Source of the DNA: Candidatus Aciduliprofundum sp.
Lineage (GTDB): Archaea; Thermoplasmatota; Thermoplasmata; Thermoplasmatales; Aciduliprofundaceae
Reading direction: 5' to 3'
Length of the DNA: 36,698 nucleotides
Assembly: GCA_015520565.1 (NCBI GenBank)
Contig: WAPW01000087.1
Coordinates: 1 to 36,698, forward strand
In this document: positions 16,421 through 23,309 of the stretch, piece by piece
Layout: every line of letters begins with the position of its first letter
How positions within the stretch are numbered: the stretch's first letter is position 1
Made by a program: the position numbers and the translations under genes
Notes under the pieces: model-generated
Databases searched by the model: none
Told to the model about the DNA's origin: nothing
The model's input: only the letters and a program-made list of their open reading frames with translations

Positions 16421-16442
16421 TACTTCGTGAAAACTATTAAAT
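16421..16442 (+). promoter_or_regulatory. TACTTCGTGA box and TATA box before the HD hydrolase gene
   Basis: TACTTCGTGA occupies 16421-16430 and the TATA-like TATTAAAT begins at 16435, 14 bases after the box start. ATG 16465 lies 30 bases after the TATA start, as expected for a leaderless mRNA. The same arrangement recurs at 17331, 20865 and, on the minus strand, 23264. An alternative TATA (TATTTTTAAATA at 16411) would serve an ATG at 16441. Confidence 0.6.
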
Positions 16443-16464
16443 GGTGCCAGAGAGTTTTATTTGT

Positions 16465-17265
16465 ATGGAAAACACAATCTGTAAAGATAGGAAGCCATTT
16501 ATCTACGATGAAACTTTTGAAGGTTGGCTCCATGGGGGACATCGTTTTCTTCTTAAAAACGGGGCTATGATGCCAGATAAGGAATTCAGGATATATGCGG
16601 GGATAGGTCCAGACCCAAGAGAAATGGGGCAAGATTTAGAAATGAGAAAATATTCGGGCCTAGTTTATGTAGAACCCTGCGTGTTGGAGATAGAGATAGA
16701 ATCATGGTTGAAAGCGTGTGATTTTTGGGACCCCTATGTTGAAAAGGCCTTGAGGATGGCAAGGGAGCTGCACGGAGAGCAGAAAAGGGATGATGGAGCT
16801 CCATACTTAGAGCAGCACATATATCCCGTAACCCTGACGATTCTAAAAACTATAAAGTTGAGACACATTCACAGATCGCCAGTAATTACCCCGCAGGATA
16901 TGATAATAACAGCCTTGCTACACGATGCTTTGGAAGACACTGATGTGAAGGAAATTAAAATCATCGATGAATTTGGAGAAAATGTATATGAAATGATTAA
17001 GGTTCTTACGAAGAAAAGGCCATGGGAGAAGGACTACAGCATGGAAGACTACATGAACAGGCTCAACTCCTCAGATTTTAGAATAAGGATGATCAAGCTA
17101 GCGGATAGGATGAACAACCTGTTTTGTCTTCAGTACACTGCCGAGGAAAAGAGAAAATGGTACATAGATGATACAATCAAATATTATTTGCCATTGGCTA
17201 AAAACACATCCAGATACTTTTACATATGGATGAAGAGAGTTCTCAAATCCATGAATGCTCTATGA
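16465..17265 (+). CDS. Stand-alone SpoT/MESH1-like HD hydrolase (candidate small alarmone hydrolase)
   Basis: This is a 266-residue protein with the RelA/SpoT-type HD hydrolase core in its C-terminal two thirds. The core reads RELHGEQKRDDGAPYLEQH (His 103 and 118), LLHDALEDTD (HD 153-154, ED 157-158), FGENVYEMIKVLTK and RMIKLADRMNNL (Asp 214). Metal ligands and the ED pair of (p)ppGpp hydrolases appear intact. There is no synthetase, TGS or ACT domain. The first ~90 residues (PFIYDETFEGWLHGG ... YVEPCVLEIEIESWL) match nothing I recognise. ATG 16465 is chosen by TATA spacing; ATG 16441 would add eight residues. It is followed by the CARF-wHTH pair under the same promoter box. The likely chemistry is removal of a 3'-pyrophosphate or phosphate from a nucleotide. 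The substrate in an archaeon is uncertain. Confidence 0.8.
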   Translation: MENTICKDRKPFIYDETFEGWLHGGHRFLLKNGAMMPDKEFRIYAGIGPDPREMGQDLEMRKYSGLVYVEPCVLEIEIESWLKACDFWDPYVEKALRMARELHGEQKRDDGAPYLEQHIYPVTLTILKTIKLRHIHRSPVITPQDMIITALLHDALEDTDVKEIKIIDEFGENVYEMIKVLTKKRPWEKDYSMEDYMNRLNSSDFRIRMIKLADRMNNLFCLQYTAEEKRKWYIDDTIKYYLPLAKNTSRYFYIWMKRVLKSMNAL

Positions 17266-17330: not shown

Positions 17331-17353
17331 CACTTCGTAGAAAGTAATATATT
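17331..17353 (+). promoter_or_regulatory. CACTTCGTAG box and TATA box before the CARF-wHTH operon
   Basis: CACTTCGTAG at 17331-17340 is an 8/10 match to TACTTCGTGA and is followed by TAATATAT starting at 17345, 14 bases from the box start. ATG 17388 lies about 43 bases after the TATA start and has GAGGAGATA as a ribosome binding site. This is the most diverged of the four copies, and it sits upstream of the candidate regulator genes themselves. Confidence 0.5.
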
Positions 17354-17387: not shown

Positions 17388-18023
17388 ATGAAACTGCTAT
17401 CCACAATAGGCTGGACATCGAAAGTAGTTATAGAAGCAGCCAAGAAACTCAAGCCGGATGAGAATGTGGTGTTTTACGGGTATGTGGATGATGAAGAGAA
17501 AGAGAAGGTTGAAAAAGCATTAAATGAGGTGAAGAAAGAGCTTTCAAATGTCAAGGCGGTGCAAGTGGACCCGATGAACTTCTACGATTGCATAACAAAG
17601 GTGAATGAATACATAGACAACACATCCGTGGCAAACATAACAGGGGGAACTAAGATAATGTCATTCTCTCTGGCTCTCAAGGCTGCCCTGATGGACATCC
17701 CAATTATATACCTAGTCACAGAGAACGGAAAGACGATGATAAAGAGAGTGCCCATAAGGTTATCCACGAGCCAAAGAAACTTTTTTAAAATGAATGAGAA
17801 CGATTCCACGGCAGTACAGATTCTGCAAGCTCTCATACACAGCCAAGGTGGGAGAATGGACATGAAAACTCTCAAGAACAAGCTTAACAAGGGCTATTCC
17901 ACGATATCGGATGCGAAGAATAGGTTAATACTTGCAAATCTCATAAGGGAGGAGAAGAACGGGAGAACGAAAATGCTCATTGCCAACAGCGCTGCATATC
18001 TCTTCGGAGGTAATGCACTATGA
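17388..18023 (+). CDS. CARF-wHTH regulator (Csa3-like)
   Basis: This 211-residue protein has an N-terminal Rossmann-like CARF domain: MKLLSTIGWTSKVVIEAAKK opens it, and ANITGGTKIMSFSLALKAAL (residues 82-101) carries the TGGTK ligand-binding motif. A C-terminal winged helix-turn-helix (about 139-205) contains NKGYSTISDAKNRLILANLI. This is the layout of Csa3-type transcription factors, which bind cyclic oligoadenylates and control cas or defence genes. ATG 17388 is chosen for its GAGGAGATA site; a longer TTG-started frame from 17325 runs through the promoter. It overlaps the next CARF gene by four bases. No cas gene is in the window, so it may control the island itself. The ligand is inferred from family only. 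Confidence 0.85.
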   Translation: MKLLSTIGWTSKVVIEAAKKLKPDENVVFYGYVDDEEKEKVEKALNEVKKELSNVKAVQVDPMNFYDCITKVNEYIDNTSVANITGGTKIMSFSLALKAALMDIPIIYLVTENGKTMIKRVPIRLSTSQRNFFKMNENDSTAVQILQALIHSQGGRMDMKTLKNKLNKGYSTISDAKNRLILANLIREEKNGRTKMLIANSAAYLFGGNAL

Positions 18024-18757
18024 AGCTTTTCGCTTCAACGCTCACTATTTACACCTACAAGAGCGATGAGGAGATAAGGAAGAAGTTGAACAACGAGGAG
18101 GTGGAAAAATTCTTGGAGGGGATGGAGTACGCGGGAGAGTTTGAGAAAGCCCTGATATTTTCCGATTATTCCAACGGAGAGTTTGAGAGAACGATTAAAG
18201 AGTTGAGCTATGAGGAGCAGGAACTATTTGCAAAGCTTGTGGAAAAAATTGAGAACTTCAAGTTAATAAAGGTGAATTTGACAAATTACGATGAGTCATA
18301 CAGGATAATGTACAGGGCCATGGATGACCACATTTCCTCGCATATTGAGAATGAGGATTTGGACATAAAGCTCAATGTGAGTTGTGGCCACAAGTTGGGC
18401 TCTCTTGCTTTATACTTGGCAACCATGAATGTCGTGCACAAGAAAGAGTACTACAGCCACCTGAGCATAAGGAGAGGAACAAAGCTCTCTGTGGATGCTT
18501 ATCACGCTGAGAAGGGTATAATAGAGAAATTGCCCACCATGAACTTTGAGAGCCAAGAAAATAAGGAATGGGAAGAAATGCTCAAAACATTGAAAACTCC
18601 AAAGACATTGGAAGAGTTCAAGAAAGAGATAAGGGAGAACGCAGACAGGGCAATTGCTTACTTCAAGAACCACAAATACATAGAGATGAAAGATGGAAAG
18701 ATACAATTGACAGAAAGGGGAAAAGTGTTGGTGGAATTCTTGGAGAGAATCTCTTAG
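18020..18757 (+). CDS. Second CARF-like wHTH regulator with degenerate ligand motif
   Basis: This 245-residue protein parallels the preceding one: an N-terminal Rossmann-like half beginning MKLFASTLTIYTY, then LDIKLNVSCGHKLGSLALYLA (residues 114-134). SCGHK there stands where TGGTK is found in the first protein. A linker rich in Glu/Lys follows, then a C-terminal wHTH (about 181-245, KYIEMKDGKIQLTERGKVLVEFL). The altered motif suggests weakened or changed nucleotide binding. A heterodimer with the first protein is one possibility, since their genes are coupled by an ATGA overlap. The 3' end overlaps tail-to-tail with the RNase J-like gene by four bases, so readthrough could produce antisense RNA to either. 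Confidence 0.7.
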   Translation: MKLFASTLTIYTYKSDEEIRKKLNNEEVEKFLEGMEYAGEFEKALIFSDYSNGEFERTIKELSYEEQELFAKLVEKIENFKLIKVNLTNYDESYRIMYRAMDDHISSHIENEDLDIKLNVSCGHKLGSLALYLATMNVVHKKEYYSHLSIRRGTKLSVDAYHAEKGIIEKLPTMNFESQENKEWEEMLKTLKTPKTLEEFKKEIRENADRAIAYFKNHKYIEMKDGKIQLTERGKVLVEFLERIS

Positions 18758-20316
18758 AATTCAATATGATCTCCATTTTTCAAGATTTTCGTTTTTTCTT
18801 CAAAATTCTGTGCGAACCAGTCTGGGTTCGTGGTGTGCACGGGTATGATTATATCAGGATCAATGGTGTCTATCATATTGCGTATCTCTTCCTCGCTTGC
18901 ATGTCCAGATGCGTGGTATCCTTCATCAAACTTGGGCTTATCACCTTCCATGTGGAATCCCGCACTTTTCATCCCGTACCTGCTTAGCCAGTTGCTTAGC
19001 GTTACAAAGTCCAGCTCCATGTCCTCCGTGAAAGCCTCTGTGGAAGAGTAAAGGTACATCCCTCCTTGCGTTTTAATGTCCATCATGTTTGGCATGTCGT
19101 AGAGGGAGAAAGCGAGTATGTAATTTCCGGGAGATTCTCTTATTTCTAAAGGATTTACATATTGATCTTCCCAAAGATCATGGTATGCCAGCATTTTCTG
19201 CCACCATCCAACTCTATCTTGGGGCTTGTCGTACACCATTATATCCTCTGTGTCTATCTCAGTGCCTGCCGTCAATAGTCCCGTTATTGCGTAAGCATCC
19301 TTATCCGTGACCACTAATTTTCTTCCATTCTCCTTGGCGATCTCGGCAAACATGTTCAACCTCTCAAAGTTCCTTGCCGAGAAATCTGCAATTATCAAGC
19401 CTCTTTCATCTCCCACTGCTGCAGAGCAGTTCTCAAAGACATCCTGCTCCGTGGTGTAGTGGTGCTCTCTGTCATCCTCTAGCCTCGTTCCTTCAATTAT
19501 GAGAACATCGCTTCCCTTCGCTTTATTGATGAATTTCAAAGTTTCTTCTCCTCTCTCCCCGTGCATTCTAAAGTCTCCAGTATAGGCGATTCTCCGCGAA
19601 TCTTCAGATTCAACTATGTATCCAACTGCTCCGTATATGGAATGGTCCACCGGATGCGCATTGACTTTGAAGGGTAAAGAGTCCAGATTGTCAAGTTCAA
19701 GCATTTCTGCAAGGTAATCCATTCTCTCTTCCGTGCTCTGCAGGCACAAAAAGTCAATTTCCTCATGGCTTAGCTCTTCAGTTGGAATCAACCTTCTGAG
19801 CATCAGGTACTTTCTAATCTTTTCCTCGTTGTTCTTTATGCTGTTTCCCTTGCTTTTCAAGATAGGCATTGAGCTTGAGTCTTCTTCTCTCTTAGCTCCG
19901 TATATTACAGAGGTTGCATTATCTGATTTTCCTGCATCCTGATACGCCTTTATTATTGCTAAGCTCTCAGGCGAGGCAACGAGAGGTATGTCAAATCTCA
20001 GATATCCAATCATCCCGTAATGGTCCATGTGCGCATGGGTGAGAAGTACAGCATCCACAGGTATTCTCTCCCAGTTAGAAGTATTCAAATCTGAGGGAGT
20101 CAAATCCTCTCTATACACATCTATTGGAGGTAGCAAATTCATCTCTATGGGGTCATTCAATCCACGAATTGCTCGCATGGATATGAATTCCTTGAAATAC
20201 TTGCCCATAGTGTCAAAATTTAACCCAAAATCCAAGAAAATTCCATGGTTTCCATCTCTAAGATAAATCTTAGATCCACCAATGCTCTCAGCTCCATCAT
20301 AGATTTTCAGTTGCAT
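18754..20316 (-). CDS. Metallo-beta-lactamase/beta-CASP ribonuclease, RNase J-like
   Basis: The 520-residue protein has the MBL metal motifs HAHMDH (94-99), H225 in HPVDHSIYG and TGDFRMHG (246-248). The beta-CASP motifs are IIADFSARN (motif A, ~308-316), YHASGHASEEE (motif B, ~467-477) and PVHT (motif C, ~492-495). A helical insert of about 80 residues (130-215) separates motifs 2 and 3 and is longer than I expect for RNase J. The catalytic set is complete, so a zinc-dependent exo/endoribonuclease is likely. It has its own leaderless promoter (GTTTAAAATAATG about 30 bases upstream), divergent from the toxin-antitoxin promoter, and no TACTTCGTGA box. The island location suggests a role different from housekeeping aRNase J, but this is unproven. 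Confidence 0.85.
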   Translation of the reverse strand: MQLKIYDGAESIGGSKIYLRDGNHGIFLDFGLNFDTMGKYFKEFISMRAIRGLNDPIEMNLLPPIDVYREDLTPSDLNTSNWERIPVDAVLLTHAHMDHYGMIGYLRFDIPLVASPESLAIIKAYQDAGKSDNATSVIYGAKREEDSSSMPILKSKGNSIKNNEEKIRKYLMLRRLIPTEELSHEEIDFLCLQSTEERMDYLAEMLELDNLDSLPFKVNAHPVDHSIYGAVGYIVESEDSRRIAYTGDFRMHGERGEETLKFINKAKGSDVLIIEGTRLEDDREHHYTTEQDVFENCSAAVGDERGLIIADFSARNFERLNMFAEIAKENGRKLVVTDKDAYAITGLLTAGTEIDTEDIMVYDKPQDRVGWWQKMLAYHDLWEDQYVNPLEIRESPGNYILAFSLYDMPNMMDIKTQGGMYLYSSTEAFTEDMELDFVTLSNWLSRYGMKSAGFHMEGDKPKFDEGYHASGHASEEEIRNMIDTIDPDIIIPVHTTNPDWFAQNFEEKTKILKNGDHIEF

Positions 20317-20401
20317 ACTTGGGACATACCTGCATACATTATTTTAAACTTTTCCCGTAATATAGGAAAAACCTTAAAATAGTAGAGAAGAATGTATAAT
20401 T
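20317..20401. promoter_or_regulatory. Divergent promoters of the RNase J-like gene and the toxin-antitoxin pair
   Basis: On the plus strand CCTTAAAATAG near 20370 lies about 28 bases before the antitoxin ATG. On the minus strand GTTTAAAATAATG lies about the same distance before the nuclease ATG. Both predict leaderless transcripts. No copy of the TACTTCGTGA box is seen here. Confidence 0.5.
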
Positions 20402-20596
20402 ATGGAAGTAGAAGCCATATACGAGAATGGCGTTTTAAAACTTGTCTCTCCTGTAAAGATAAAGGATGATAAAATAGTGGTAAGAATAGTAAATAGGGAT
20501 GAGGTACTAACTGAGGAAGATATGAGGGATATCATAGAGGCGGTCAATGAAAGAGAAAAAGGGCACTACTACAAGATGGAGGAAGTTTTTGAATGA
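20402..20596 (+). CDS. DUF104 family antitoxin (AF2212-like)
   Basis: The 64-residue protein opens with MEVEAIYENGVLKLVSPVKIK, matching the short beta-strand DUF104 antitoxin family, then a helical acidic tail (EEDMRDIIEAVNEREKGHYYKMEEVFE) of the kind that wraps the toxin. The stop overlaps the toxin ATG (ATGA), the classic coupling of type II modules. It probably represses its own promoter together with the toxin, as is usual for the class. Confidence 0.8.
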   Translation: MEVEAIYENGVLKLVSPVKIKDDKIVVRIVNRDEVLTEEDMRDIIEAVNEREKGHYYKMEEVFE

Positions 20597-20856
20597 GCTA
20601 CGAGGTTCTTTTCTCTCCTAAAAGCAGAAGACAGATTAAAGGATTGAAAGATGAAAAATTGAAAGAGAAAATAAAAGAGGCAGTAATAGAGATAGGAAAA
20701 GATCCTTGGCATAAAGGAACCATAAAGGTTGAAGGCTATGAGAACATAAGGAGAAAAAGAGTGGGTAGGTACAGGATTTTATATATGATAGACAAGCAAA
20801 GAAAAGAAGTGTTGGTTGTGAAAATTGAGAAAAGATCTGAAACTACATATAAATGA
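20593..20856 (+). CDS. RelE/ParE-type toxin
   Basis: The 87-residue protein has the RelE-superfamily pattern: YEVLFSPKSRRQIKGLK opens it, a Lys/Glu-rich helix pair follows, then GYENIRRKRVGRYRILYMIDKQRKEVLVVKIEKRSETTYK, with the basic strand and the RYRILY motif typical of ribosome-dependent mRNA interferases. The Arg/Lys residues of the active face are present, so it is probably active. It is partnered by the DUF104 antitoxin just upstream. Its last ~28 bases recur at 16375-16402. A toxin of the ParE branch cannot be excluded. Confidence 0.8.
   Translation: MSYEVLFSPKSRRQIKGLKDEKLKEKIKEAVIEIGKDPWHKGTIKVEGYENIRRKRVGRYRILYMIDKQRKEVLVVKIEKRSETTYK
20828..20856 (+). repeat. Copy 2 of the toxin-tail segment (end of the intact toxin gene)
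   Basis: This is the 3' end of the RelE-like gene, close in sequence to 16375-16402 and ending in the same TGA. In both places the TACTTCGTGA box follows: nine bases after the end here and 18 bases after it at the other copy. Confidence 0.55.
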
Positions 20857-20864
20857 TTTTCCAA

Positions 20865-20887
20865 TACTTCGTGAAAATCTATTTATT
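20865..20887 (+). promoter_or_regulatory. TACTTCGTGA box and TATA box before the acidic gene
   Basis: TACTTCGTGA at 20865-20874 is exact, with TATTTATT starting at 20880, 15 bases from the box start. The downstream gene starts at ATG 20918 with GGTGAT (20909-20914). So the gene has its own promoter despite following the toxin gene closely. Confidence 0.6.
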
Positions 20888-20917
20888 CTCCGCAGCCAAG
20901 GGTTAAGCGGTGATGCT

Positions 20918-21268
20918 ATGAGTGTGGAAGAATGTGTGGAAAAGGTAGAAGTGCAGGATAACAACTACACTGCAGTTGTGGATGAGGAGATTTACCGGCA
21001 GGTTGGACATTTCAAGAAAGTAATAGATGCCATGGTAGGTGATGAGTTAGATAGCATGGACGATTACATCAATTTCATCCTGAAAATAGGAATGCAAAAG
21101 ATGCTGATAGATGTGCTGCCAGATGATGAGGCACTCCAAATGACTATGGTGGCAATGTTTGAAGACAATCCCGAGTACCTATGCGAGTTCGTGTCCAAAG
21201 TTCTAAGAGATGGAAATAACGAAAAGGTAGAGGGAAAGAAGTCCGAGTGGATGAACGCGTATGGATGA
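20918..21268 (+). CDS. Acidic hypothetical protein, possibly interrupted
   Basis: This 116-residue protein is rich in Asp and Glu (VDEEIYRQVGHFKKVIDAMV, GDELDSMDDYINFILKIG, PDDEALQMTMVAMFEDNPEY). The order strand-helix-helix near residues 17-55 recalls ribbon-helix-helix proteins, but I cannot assign a family. ATG 20918 is chosen over a TTG at 20825 that lies inside the toxin gene and before the promoter. The stop is a TGA at 21266-21268, and the same frame stays open afterwards to 21415. The gene is therefore either a short protein or the first part of a 160-residue gene broken by a nonsense mutation. It shares a promoter box with the HD and CARF genes. Confidence 0.6.
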   Translation: MSVEECVEKVEVQDNNYTAVVDEEIYRQVGHFKKVIDAMVGDELDSMDDYINFILKIGMQKMLIDVLPDDEALQMTMVAMFEDNPEYLCEFVSKVLRDGNNEKVEGKKSEWMNAYG

Positions 21269-21283
21269 ATTGGAGATGATACC

Positions 21284-21415
21284 GTGGAAGATGAAGAAAC
21301 CGTGTATCTGGACATGTTCGGTTTGTCAACGGACAAAGAGCATGCAATATTCAAGAAAGTTTACAAGAAGAGTGGTCTAATAGTGATTTACGCCGTACAC
21401 AATGATGAAGAATGA
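21284..21415 (+). CDS. Small acidic ORF, in frame with the preceding gene
   Basis: This is a 43-codon frame from GTG 21284 (V/MEDEETVYLDMFGLSTDKEH ... GLIVIYAVHNDEE), with GGAGATGAT just upstream. It is in the same frame as the gene ending at 21268, with only five codons between that TGA and this GTG. It may be the severed C-terminal part of the same protein or a separate coupled small protein. Composition matches the preceding gene (acidic, Tyr/Asp-rich). No family was recognised. Confidence 0.4.
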   Translation: MEDEETVYLDMFGLSTDKEHAIFKKVYKKSGLIVIYAVHNDEE

Positions 21416-21446
21416 CCCTATTTTTTCTATTTTTGAATTCCATTTC

Positions 21447-21467
21447 AATTTTAGTCCGACTAAAATT
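21447..21467 (+). promoter_or_regulatory. Palindromic operator-like site upstream of the truncated ATPase
   Basis: AATTTTAGTC (21447-21456) and GACTAAAATT (21458-21467) form a perfect 10-base inverted repeat with a one-base centre. A half-site, AATTTTAG, recurs at 21480-21487, in each case preceded by CATTTC. A TATA-like TTAATATAG follows near 21492-21500. This looks like an operator for a dimeric repressor of the ATPase promoter. Confidence 0.5.
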
Positions 21468-21523
21468 TAACTGCATTTCAATTTTAGCAAGATTAATATA
21501 GCTAGAGGTCATGAGAAGCATGT

Positions 21524-21829
21524 ATGTATGTTCACAGAGATTTGGAAGATAAATTCAAGAAGGTTGCGGGCAGTTATTCGGTAGTTGCGCTCGTAGGTCC
21601 AAGGCAATCTGGAAAAACGACCATGCTAAAAGAGCTAATGAAAGAGTACAATTCCTCTTATGTTTTGTTTGACGATCCAGATGCGAGAAGGTTATTTGAT
21701 GAGGATATCAAGAAATTCATAGTGCAGTACATAGAAGGTTATGATTTGGCTATTCTGGATGAGTTCCAGTACTGTAAAGATCCCGGCTCAAAGTTAGTAG
21801 AAGAAGTACCATATGGTGTGGAAACGTAG
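21524..21829 (+). pseudogene. Truncated archaeal AAA-type ATPase (DUF4143-linked family), ending in a CRISPR repeat
   Basis: The N-terminal 90 residues are a good P-loop ATPase: MYVHRDLEDKF, GPRQSGKTTMLKEL (Walker A), FDDPDARRLF, and LAILDEFQYCKDPGSKL (Walker B with the E-Q sensor-like pair). Family members are usually around 400 residues and continue after GSKL with a Lys-Tyr-Leu-rich strand and a DUF4143 region. Here the frame passes directly into CRISPR repeat 1, adding VEEVPYGVET and a stop. The rest of the gene is not found downstream in the window. It is therefore a truncated gene whose 3' part was replaced by or lost to the CRISPR-like array. The family name is from recall. Confidence 0.75.
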
Positions 21830-22030
21830 CGGAGCAGGGCTTGAATATCATCCGCCATCTCGTAGAAGAAGTACCATATGGTGTGGAAACTTTATATTTC
21901 CGTCAATCATCATCAAAAACTTTCCATGTAGGTAGAAGAAGTACCATATGGTGTGGAAACATTTGTGTGCTATTAACTAACTTTCCATTGTAATCTACGG
22001 GTAGAAGAAGTACCATGTGGGTTTTGGAAA
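21797..22030 (+). CRISPR. CRISPR mini-array: three identical repeats, one degenerate, three spacers
   Basis: A 29-base repeat (GTAGAAGAAGTACC ... GTGTGGAAAC, with ATATG in the middle) occurs at 21797-21825, 21862-21890 and 21932-21960 without a mismatch. A diverged copy lies at 22001-22030. Spacers are 36, 41 and 40 bases. The repeat end GGAAAC and the degenerate last copy both place the leader side on the left. There, however, lies ATPase coding sequence instead of an A+T-rich leader, so the array appears leaderless and probably no longer grows. No cas genes are in the window. Transcription could come from the ATPase promoter. Spacer origins are unknown. Confidence 0.85.
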
Positions 22031-22103
22031 TATCTTGGCTATGGGGCCAATTGAATTTATAAAAATGATAGTGGAGAAATACGAACAAAATTATTAGTTG
22101 GGT

Positions 22104-23219
22104 TTACATTGTACCAACAACTTCGCTTGCAGCTCTTATCAGCTCATCCTTGGTCCAAGCTCTCCACTCAACTGGCACGACCACAGGATTTTCATCTCCC
22201 TCGTAGTATACGGCAAGAATATCCTCCTTTAAATCATTCTCTTTGGACTCAGGTATCATGAACCTAGCAAGCTCGGCCTTTGCAGCTATAATCATCTTGT
22301 CCTCAAACTCAAACACCACGCCAACCTCTGCGTGCAACCTCTGTGCCTCGTTAGCAATCGTGGTAAGCTCTTTCTTGTTTCTTATCTTGAAAGGCACATC
22401 GTAAATGTAGCTCAGCTTCTCCTCGGGAAACATTACTTCAAAGATATCCCTATCGATCCTAAGCATAGAGTGCGCTACTTTAGCACTTAGAGACATTATG
22501 GTGTATGCAGGGAGAGTTAATACCAAAGCTACTTCGTTCTTATTCAAATTCTCTTTCACGAACCTGAACATAGCATCTTTGCTCTCTGTCAATCCTTTAC
22601 AATTGTGGTCAAAGAGGTGAATAAAACCGGCGTTGTTGAACAAGAATCCTGCATAGTTAATGCCATAAGAGTAAATGAAATAACCTTCTTTGGCGCATGC
22701 AAACTCAGAGCTACCCTTCCATGCCAGAACAATATCGCAGTCACCCTTATCAATGCAGTTCTCGGCTATCATTTTTATCTCATCCTCGGAGAGATTTATA
22801 TCATCCACCCTTTTGAACATAGTAAAATCTTCCTTTTTCACTATGAAAACACCATTGTAAGGGAATCCCATATTGCTCATCATAAAATAGTGTCCAGTTC
22901 CAACAATAATAGCGTAATCTTTCCAGAAATAAGATCTATGTTCCATATCACTTTCATACAGCATCATTTCATTATCATTCTTTGCTGGAAGTGCCTTCGT
23001 CTCCTTGGATTCTGGCTCATCATTGATCCATCTCCACACCTTTTTCTCTCCTTTCCATAGAAGTCCTCCAAACTTAAAAATAAACCAGAAGAACACAAAT
23101 CCCAATACAAATATGTAAGTTGCAAAGCATATCGTGCCGCTTTCAGATGCTCCTGATATGCCTACAAATATTGCAAGGAGTAACGCAATTATCAATGCGG
23201 CTTTTGCAGCTGTGCTCAT
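22104..23219 (-). CDS. Unknown membrane-anchored protein of the accessory island
   Basis: This 371-residue protein has two N-terminal transmembrane helices (about 5-24 and 31-50), a basic linker (LLWKGEKKVWRWI) and a large soluble part of about 310 residues with no motif I recognise. Noticeable words are DYAIIVGTGHYFMM, GNxxx-free stretches rich in Phe/Tyr, GFIHLFDHNCKGL and EVGVVFEFEDKMIIAAKAELARFM. ATG 23219 is chosen because a TATA-like TTTTTATAC begins 30 bases upstream, predicting a leaderless mRNA. An ATG at 23258 would place the promoter inside the gene. The promoter carries the same TACTTCGTGA box as the HD and CARF units, so it probably belongs to their regulon. A membrane effector or sensor is a guess. 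Confidence 0.65.
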   Translation of the reverse strand: MSTAAKAALIIALLLAIFVGISGASESGTICFATYIFVLGFVFFWFIFKFGGLLWKGEKKVWRWINDEPESKETKALPAKNDNEMMLYESDMEHRSYFWKDYAIIVGTGHYFMMSNMGFPYNGVFIVKKEDFTMFKRVDDINLSEDEIKMIAENCIDKGDCDIVLAWKGSSEFACAKEGYFIYSYGINYAGFLFNNAGFIHLFDHNCKGLTESKDAMFRFVKENLNKNEVALVLTLPAYTIMSLSAKVAHSMLRIDRDIFEVMFPEEKLSYIYDVPFKIRNKKELTTIANEAQRLHAEVGVVFEFEDKMIIAAKAELARFMIPESKENDLKEDILAVYYEGDENPVVVPVEWRAWTKDELIRAASEVVGTM

Positions 23220-23241
23220 AGAGAATAGTTTGTGATTAGGG

Positions 23242-23264
23242 TATAAAAACATACTCACGAAGTA
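23242..23264 (-). promoter_or_regulatory. TACTTCGTGA box and TATA box before the membrane protein gene
   Basis: On the minus strand TACTTCGTGA occupies 23264-23255 and TTTTTATA starts at 23249, 15 bases from the box start. ATG 23219 follows 30 bases after the TATA start. Spacing is the same as at the HD hydrolase promoter, on the opposite strand and 7 kb away, so this is not part of a simple local duplication. Confidence 0.6.
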
Positions 23265-23309
23265 TGCAATATCTTCATATCTTTCAAAAAAGAAAGATTA
23301 AGAAAATTA

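Follow-up and report, generated by a model that had tools for sequence, protein, structure and literature searches.

Paired CARF-winged-helix genes in Candidatus Aciduliprofundum and other Thermoplasmatota: a candidate two-subunit regulator, mostly in genomes lacking Cas10

CARF domains are mostly taken to be receptors for the cyclic oligoadenylate made by Cas10, and a pair of CARF regulators that lies outside any cas operon is a clean test case for that view. Such a pair occupies the middle of the stretch of DNA analysed here (the window: 36,698 nucleotides of contig WAPW01000087.1, Candidatus Aciduliprofundum sp.), where two adjoining genes, here called A and B, each encode a CARF domain followed by a winged helix-turn-helix (wHTH). 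The question is whether these genes form one regulator or two, and what they might respond to. A first-pass annotation, made from the letters alone, had described two tandem CARF-wHTH genes at 17388-18757 with a four-base overlap. These coordinates are exact (the overlap is the ATGA at 18020-18023), and Csa3 is the best structural match of both proteins; the places given for the ligand motifs (TGGTK at residues 85-89 of A; SCGHK in the 117-131 segment of B, at residues 121-125) and for a wHTH at the end of each protein also proved correct, the latter by weak HTH matches and secondary structure in A and by a MarR-like match in B. The features are collected in Table 1.

Table 1. Coordinates of the gene pair, its domains and motifs, and the associated features in the window
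Feature	Position	Strand	Basis or remark
Gene A, CARF-wHTH protein, 211 aa	17388..18023	+	ATG at 17388, stop ends at 18023
Gene A, longer alternative frame	begins 17325	+	TTG start
A CARF domain, residues 1-125	17388..17762	+	secondary structure; VIA Z 17.0 to Can2 CARF over residues 1-123
A ligand motif 2, N83-I-T-G-G-T-K89	17634..17654	+	invariant in 13/13 family rows
A winged helix, about residues 137-205	17796..18002	+	weak HTH matches at 137-198 and secondary structure
Gene B, divergent CARF-wHTH paralogue, 245 aa	18020..18757	+	ATG at 18020, stop ends at 18757
B CARF domain, residues 1-174	18020..18541	+	strand-1/helix-1 region enlarged; family alignment, model, VIA
B ligand motif 2, N119-V-S-C-G-H-K125	18374..18394	+	N119, S121, G123, H124 and K125 invariant in 14/14 family rows
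B winged helix, about residues 178-245, MarR-like	18551..18754	+	structure match
Conserved element CTTCGTAGAAAGTAATATAT	17333..17352	+	TTCGnAGAA half-palindrome and TATA-like part; sole exact match in each of 4 genomes
RNase J-like metallo-beta-lactamase (MBL)/RMMBL protein, 520 aa	18754..20316	-	convergent; lies near the pair in several lineages
Remnant CRISPR array, repeat GTAGAAGAAGTACCATATGGTGTGGAAAC in three copies plus a degenerate fourth	21797-22028		same repeat as in sister genome G003

The two proteins differ greatly in how readily they are recognized from sequence. A matches the CARF3 group of PADLOC (PDLC01872) over its full length at 1.1e-130, so that A or a near twin is probably among the data of that model, and it scores above the Pfam cut-offs for Csa3_N (31.2 bits, cut-off 27) and CARF_Card1 (31.4 bits, cut-off 24.6) and below that of the curated Csa3 model TIGR01884 (35.9 bits, cut-off 60.2). 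B is far more diverged: every Pfam match falls under its cut-off, neither Csa3_N (in the Pfam scan) nor TIGR01884 gives a match, the best of any PADLOC model is CARF3 at 5.1e-7, and the protein is apparently not catalogued there as a CARF protein. Single-sequence searches of the PDB returned no significant relative for A or for B; a profile of A reached Can2 (8.6e-6), and a profile of B reached no CARF chain.

AlphaFold models built from alignments of 10 (A) and 11 (B) sequences have mean pLDDT values of 86.1 and 88.8 and pTM values of 0.68 and 0.84, respectively, and for both the best Foldseek match in the PDB is Csa3 (6wxq; 5.2e-9 for A, 6.9e-7 for B). The TM-scores to Csa3 are modest by query length (0.42 and 0.33), as expected if the modelled CARF and wHTH domains stand at a different angle. 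Compared as separate domains with VIA, the CARF domain of A superposes on that of Can2 with Z 17.0 (114 residues, rmsd 1.8) and that of B with Z 11.6 (118 residues, rmsd 2.7), and the last 68 residues of B match MarR-type winged helices (Z about 10). A CARF fold is therefore present in B as well, which is the point on which the earlier proposal of a CARF pair had been made to depend. A likeness between the first 50 residues of B and a 66-aa anti-CRISPR protein (9vx9, E 0.054) was taken as chance. Between the window and sister genome G003, which are 95% identical over the pair, purifying selection acts on both genes (dN/dS 0.083 for A and 0.064 for B; 0.075 for the adjoining MBL gene).

The first-pass annotation had further proposed that one of the two ligand motifs is intact and the other degenerate. 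The published CARF signature, [DN]X[ST]XXX[RK] (PMC4012209), follows strand 4 in both proteins, as N83-K89 in A and N119-K125 in B, with its positions invariant in the family alignments (13 rows for A, since the shortened A frame of a fourteenth genome, G015, was left out). In the Csa3 of S. solfataricus, changing G96 or R98 to alanine abolishes binding of cA4, and among Csa3 homologues position 95 is mostly Gly and M97 is less conserved (PMC8844856). By positional alignment of the motif the equivalents of G96 and R98 are G87 and K89 in A and G123 and K125 in B, and the odd-looking C122 of B (C, G or S among the 14 rows of the DHVE2 family, to which the window belongs) stands at a position that varies even in true Csa3. 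Because the motif of B, which fits the signature and keeps the Gly and the basic residue, is conserved in 14/14 family rows and the gene has a low dN/dS (0.06), the reading of a degenerate motif is rejected for the window protein, whose motif 2 is, judged by its residues, intact. The same proposal holds better elsewhere: across families the basic residue is kept in all 28 A rows and in 22 of 28 B rows, the six losses falling in f19 (2 rows) and in part of f24 (4 rows), while all B rows of f1 keep it.

What is reshaped in B is the strand-1 side of the pocket, where motif 1 has no Gly and T9, Y11, Y13, R20, L23 and N24 are invariant in the family alignment, as are H162 and E164 (14 family rows). 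The Csa3-specific cA4 motif 1 is given as hydrophobic-G-F-N/D (PMC8844856); at this position A has an invariant G8-W9, with aromatic W for F, and the family B proteins have T-x-Y-x-Y with no Gly. B could still have changed its ligand specificity, lacking the strand-1 Gly and holding invariant T9, Y11, Y13 and R20 instead. An entry for ToCsm6 H132A in the Foldseek list of B gave rise to a further idea, namely that B is a CARF ring nuclease acting through its invariant His124. In the ToCsm6 ring nuclease, however, the His precedes the motif Gly (H132) and is paired with W14 (PMC6754442, residue pairing as read from that paper), whereas His124 of B follows it, and the position equivalent to H132 is C, G or S in B and Gly in A; the idea was dropped.

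Whether A and B belong together can be judged from their distribution. The first survey covered 61 genomes (that of the window and 60 relatives, those with names being DHVE2-group or Thermoplasmata archaea), and profile matches were found to A in 16 and to B in 15. Within the DHVE2 family, A and B lie next to each other on one strand in 14 of 18 genomes (with a short A frame in G015), which includes every one of the 14 with a strong match to B; in the other four, A is cut at a contig end (G005), weak matches fall on separate contigs (G007) or neither gene is found (G001, G011). In the class as a whole, the A profile matches 68 of 400 genomes, and of 20 loci hand-chosen among these matches to span other Thermoplasmata families, 17 have the tandem pair and three a lone CARF protein. 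Across the phylum, a mixed profile matched 99 of 389 genomes, many through the wHTH part alone; nine further loci were taken from the better matches, and seven of them carry the tandem, five of these outside the class. The remaining two are a genome with A and no B (G420) and one whose contig ends soon after A (G541). In all seven tandems, none of which was used in building the profiles, the upstream gene fits the A model better than the B model, and the downstream gene the reverse. A start codon for B lies at most 25 nt from the stop of A in 36 of 37 loci, the start nearest the A stop having been chosen, which favours short gaps. The long B frames of L099, L136 and L140, which could pass for natural fusions of A with B, are out-of-frame extensions over A.

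A tree of 28 A rows, 28 B rows and the three lone proteins (family pairs L039, L041 and L043, near-copies or short, were left out) places all A rows in one starred clade (96/87) and all B rows in another (99/99), and the A clade is present in 92% of 200 bootstrap trees. Each clade holds families f1, f19, f22, f23, f24, f27 and f30, with the caution that f1 sits on long branches in both and that one B row (L122) joins f1 with a long-branch flag. The simplest reading of this tree would be a single duplication that predates the split of these families, after which the pair was kept together.

With a CARF sensor and a wHTH in each protein, an old shared duplication and pairing in the same order in many Thermoplasmatota, A and B are read here, with moderate confidence, as subunits that are translated together and make up one ligand-responsive transcription regulator, most likely a heterodimer of the two. 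The support for the heterodimer is indirect and consists of the old duplication, the co-conservation in fixed order, the tight coupling and the asymmetric evolution of the motifs. Coupling and co-conservation also fit two homodimers, and each protein might instead pair only with itself, giving two regulators that come from a single transcript, have differing DNA sites or ligands and are co-translated for matched dosage only. This seems somewhat unlikely: although the relatives Csa3a and MM_0565 are homodimers (PMC7465815), both wHTHs look intact and A occurs without B in G420, the gene order and the tight junction are kept across families and outside the class, and the B proteins of f19 and part of f24 have lost the basic residue yet stay beside A, which is easier to understand if B works with A. 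In the heterodimer, the CARF domains would pair A with B and so create an asymmetric pocket.

The first-pass annotation had seen no cas genes nearby; this is right for the 17 window proteins scanned with Pfam, among which no cas gene was found, but the remnant CRISPR array lies about 3 kb downstream. Its inference that this is not a usual Csa3 context agrees with the complete genome G002, where the pair is more than 130 kb away from cas1, and thus has no adjacency of the type I-A kind. A CARF-model match on the cas1 contig of G000 (L165 3-701) was discarded, as its translation shows an HTH and no evident CARF domain. The window at 18802-21796 aligns to L154 18983-15971 of G003, and at 21797-23269 to L154 2948-1473; the intervening 13 kb in G003 hold a Cas10 with GGDD, RAMP genes, CARF-like genes, Cas4, Cas1 and arrays (names other than Cas1, Cas10 and RAMP were read from translations). 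The distance between this type III locus and the pair in that genome is about 8 to 20 kb. It looks, from this alignment, as if the locus was deleted in the lineage of the window; the pair has not decayed with the loss, and the time since then may be short. An AAA ATPase gene at 21524-21829 of the window is cut to 101 aa where the first CRISPR repeat starts, and is 390 aa long in G003.

These remains suggest an orphan type III CRISPR regulator, which would sense cyclic oligoadenylate and outlive the loss of its system, as in the window. Csa3a does bind cA4 (PMC8699464, PMC8844856), the type III locus of G003 with its GGDD Cas10 is close to the pair, and the remnant array sits at the corresponding site. 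Against this, the Cas10 palm domain was found in 2 of 56 genomes searched, that is, in 2 of the 31 with a verified pair (G003 and G004; the other 25 comprise four family genomes in which the pair is incomplete or missing and genomes whose pair locus was not opened), and RAMP in 2 of 43, the same two, where control genomes gave 5/14 for Cas10 and 4/14 for RAMP. Nearly all examined pair-carrying genomes therefore lack the usual maker of CARF ligands, and Cas10-made cyclic oligoadenylate is unlikely as the general ligand. Cas10 is moreover sporadic, whereas the pair is old and stable, and the type III locus of G003 has CARF-like proteins of its own (as read from translations), so that the orphan regulator appears quite improbable. 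Cas1 occurs in 9 of 21 genomes searched, so some pair genomes carry other CRISPR systems; no Cas1 match was found in the pair-bearing draft genomes G008, G009 and G012. The regulation exerted by the pair is probably independent of CRISPR.

The ligand of Csa3-type proteins in genomes that lack Cas10 is acknowledged as an open question, for which products of CD-NTases have been suggested (PMC8699464). A sensor of such a host-made cyclic nucleotide, for instance c-di-AMP or a CD-NTase product, would agree with the c-di-AMP synthase domain (DAC) in 9/9 genomes searched of the DHVE2 family; the domain is also present in 3/3 genomes outside the class. The domain is missing, however, from 13/13 other class genomes with the pair or its profile matches, which makes c-di-AMP unlikely as the general ligand, and this alternative is considered very unlikely overall. 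For the favoured A:B regulator, the pocket would bind a nucleotide-derived ligand unrelated to CRISPR, with A giving the conserved basic anchor.

Upstream of A, a conserved element, CTTCG(T/G)AGAAA(G/A)TAAT(A/T)TAT, ends 32 to 35 nt before the ATG in four genomes (G000, G003, G002 and G006), among which the DNA further upstream is hardly alignable. It could be the promoter with an operator. No other exact match was found in the four genomes, hence no regulon, and at two mismatches there are 5 matches elsewhere compared with 2 for a reversed-pattern control; direct regulation of cas genes through a shared operator was set aside, there being no second exact match and few at two mismatches. Binding of the ligand might reposition both wHTHs at this promoter of the operon itself, and at nearby genes.

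The neighbours of the pair give the remaining hints. With the RNase J-like protein as query, 41 of 44 genomes were matched, and in 13 of the 41 (G000, G002, G003, G006, G009, G013, G114, G140, G177, G206, G062, G415 and G420) the top match is no more than 5 kb from the pair or from A. By our estimate, chance would bring this about in roughly one genome in 100; the 13 represent about six lineages and are not independent cases. No such proximity occurs in the other 28, including all eight genomes of the DHVE2 subgroup g2 and those of f22, f19, f24 and f30. Among 38 loci opened, an MBL gene is near the pair in 11, a HAD-type hydrolase in 10, and a CARF-only gene with a PIN gene in 5; half of the loci (19/38) have at least one of the tabulated partners and 19/38 none, several contigs or flanks being short. 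The fullest arrangement is seen outside the class in G415 (L156 4706-9999), where A, B, a CARF-only gene (so labelled from its f22 homologue, itself a weak Csa3_N match), PIN, HAD and the RNase J-like MBL are tightly packed on one strand, and in the G420 lineage (L160) A directly precedes the RNase J-like gene, with no B. The CARF-only and PIN gene pair is also present in f22, and in L120 it lies away from any tandem pair.

Other neighbours were seen in particular lineages. A MoxR ATPase, a VWA protein and an unnamed 192-aa protein are directly upstream of A in subgroup g2 (L040 6718-9816 and other loci), and MoxR and VWA genes are positioned divergently in G003. SbcD- and SbcC-like genes (named from metallophosphatase and AAA matches) directly follow B on the same strand in G003 (L033 5510-9270) and are absent there in the window, and a gene of histone deacetylase type converges on B in f24. 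Directly upstream of A in the window (16441-17265) is an HD-domain protein that resembles the hydrolase part of RelA/SpoT (Pfam HD_4; TIGR00691 1.3e-22); it was rejected as a partner, a homologue having been found in none of the family loci. AF2212-like and ParE-type genes at 20402-20856 are likely a toxin-antitoxin pair.

An RNase J-like enzyme, a HAD hydrolase and a PIN nuclease accompanied by a CARF protein of its own recur beside the pair, and on that ground the signal and the targets of the A:B regulator might lie in RNA decay or repair, which is the weakest step of the proposed mechanism; the MoxR/VWA neighbours in g2 and the histone deacetylase-type neighbour in f24 do not look like RNA decay. 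In its most specific form, which we regard as speculative and unlikely, the pair would be an obligate CARF heterodimer whose asymmetric pocket takes an asymmetric RNA-derived ligand (e.g. a tRNA fragment or other short RNA that carries a 2′,3′-cyclic phosphate), and which controls an RNA decay/repair set (RNase J-like MBL, CARF-only protein and PIN nuclease, HAD hydrolase) as a CRISPR-independent archaeal module.

Literature searches at the level of titles and abstracts showed no earlier description of CARF-wHTH proteins as a tandem or heterodimeric pair, and Makarova et al. 2020, on the CARF superfamily, may mention these proteins. The merits of the pair as a test case are that it (i) is kept together across much of the phylum, (ii) occurs mostly without Cas10, (iii) has motifs that evolve differently and (iv) has recurrent enzyme neighbours that hint at signals. 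The pocket of canonical CARF dimers is symmetric, and the reading of an asymmetric ligand by a CARF domain is described as unresolved (PMC7790460); a heterodimer, if true, would be one answer.

Among known systems, the Csa3 regulators of type I-A (Csa3a and Csa3b) are closest in the two-domain layout, as the top PDB match and in the Gly and basic residue of motif 2, present in both A and B. The studied Csa3a, however, is a homodimer encoded near cas genes, whereas here two paralogues share one operon with no adjoining cas gene found, and in S. solfataricus csa3b and csa3a are not in tandem but have a CRISPR array between them (PMC8699464). HFX_2341 (PF19810) is likewise a CARF-wHTH protein, from haloarchaea, unlinked to CRISPR, a global repressor that is also found in CRISPR-negative species (PMC11434293); it differs in being described there as a single gene of 308 aa, and A (23.9 bits) and B (24.6 bits) stay below the PF19810 (HFX_2341_N) cut-off of 30. 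MM_0565 of Methanosarcina mazei is another archaeal CARF-wHTH regulator, with an effector that is not known, but it flanks a type I-B cas operon, is a homodimer in solution and is described without a tandem partner (PMC7465815). RtcR offers a likeness in role only: it is a bacterial sigma-54 AAA+ activator with a divergent CARF domain, and A and B, which hold only CARF and wHTH, lack its fusion of CARF, sigma-54 AAA+ ATPase and HTH. Its CARF domain nevertheless reads a ligand unrelated to CRISPR, namely 5′ tRNA fragments with a terminal 2′,3′-cyclic phosphate, and its gene lies beside RNA-processing genes (PMC7790460). Should the pair be an RNA-ligand module, it would play in archaea the part that RtcR plays in bacteria, and CARF sensing in this phylum would then seem to have no dependence on type III CRISPR and perhaps to predate it.
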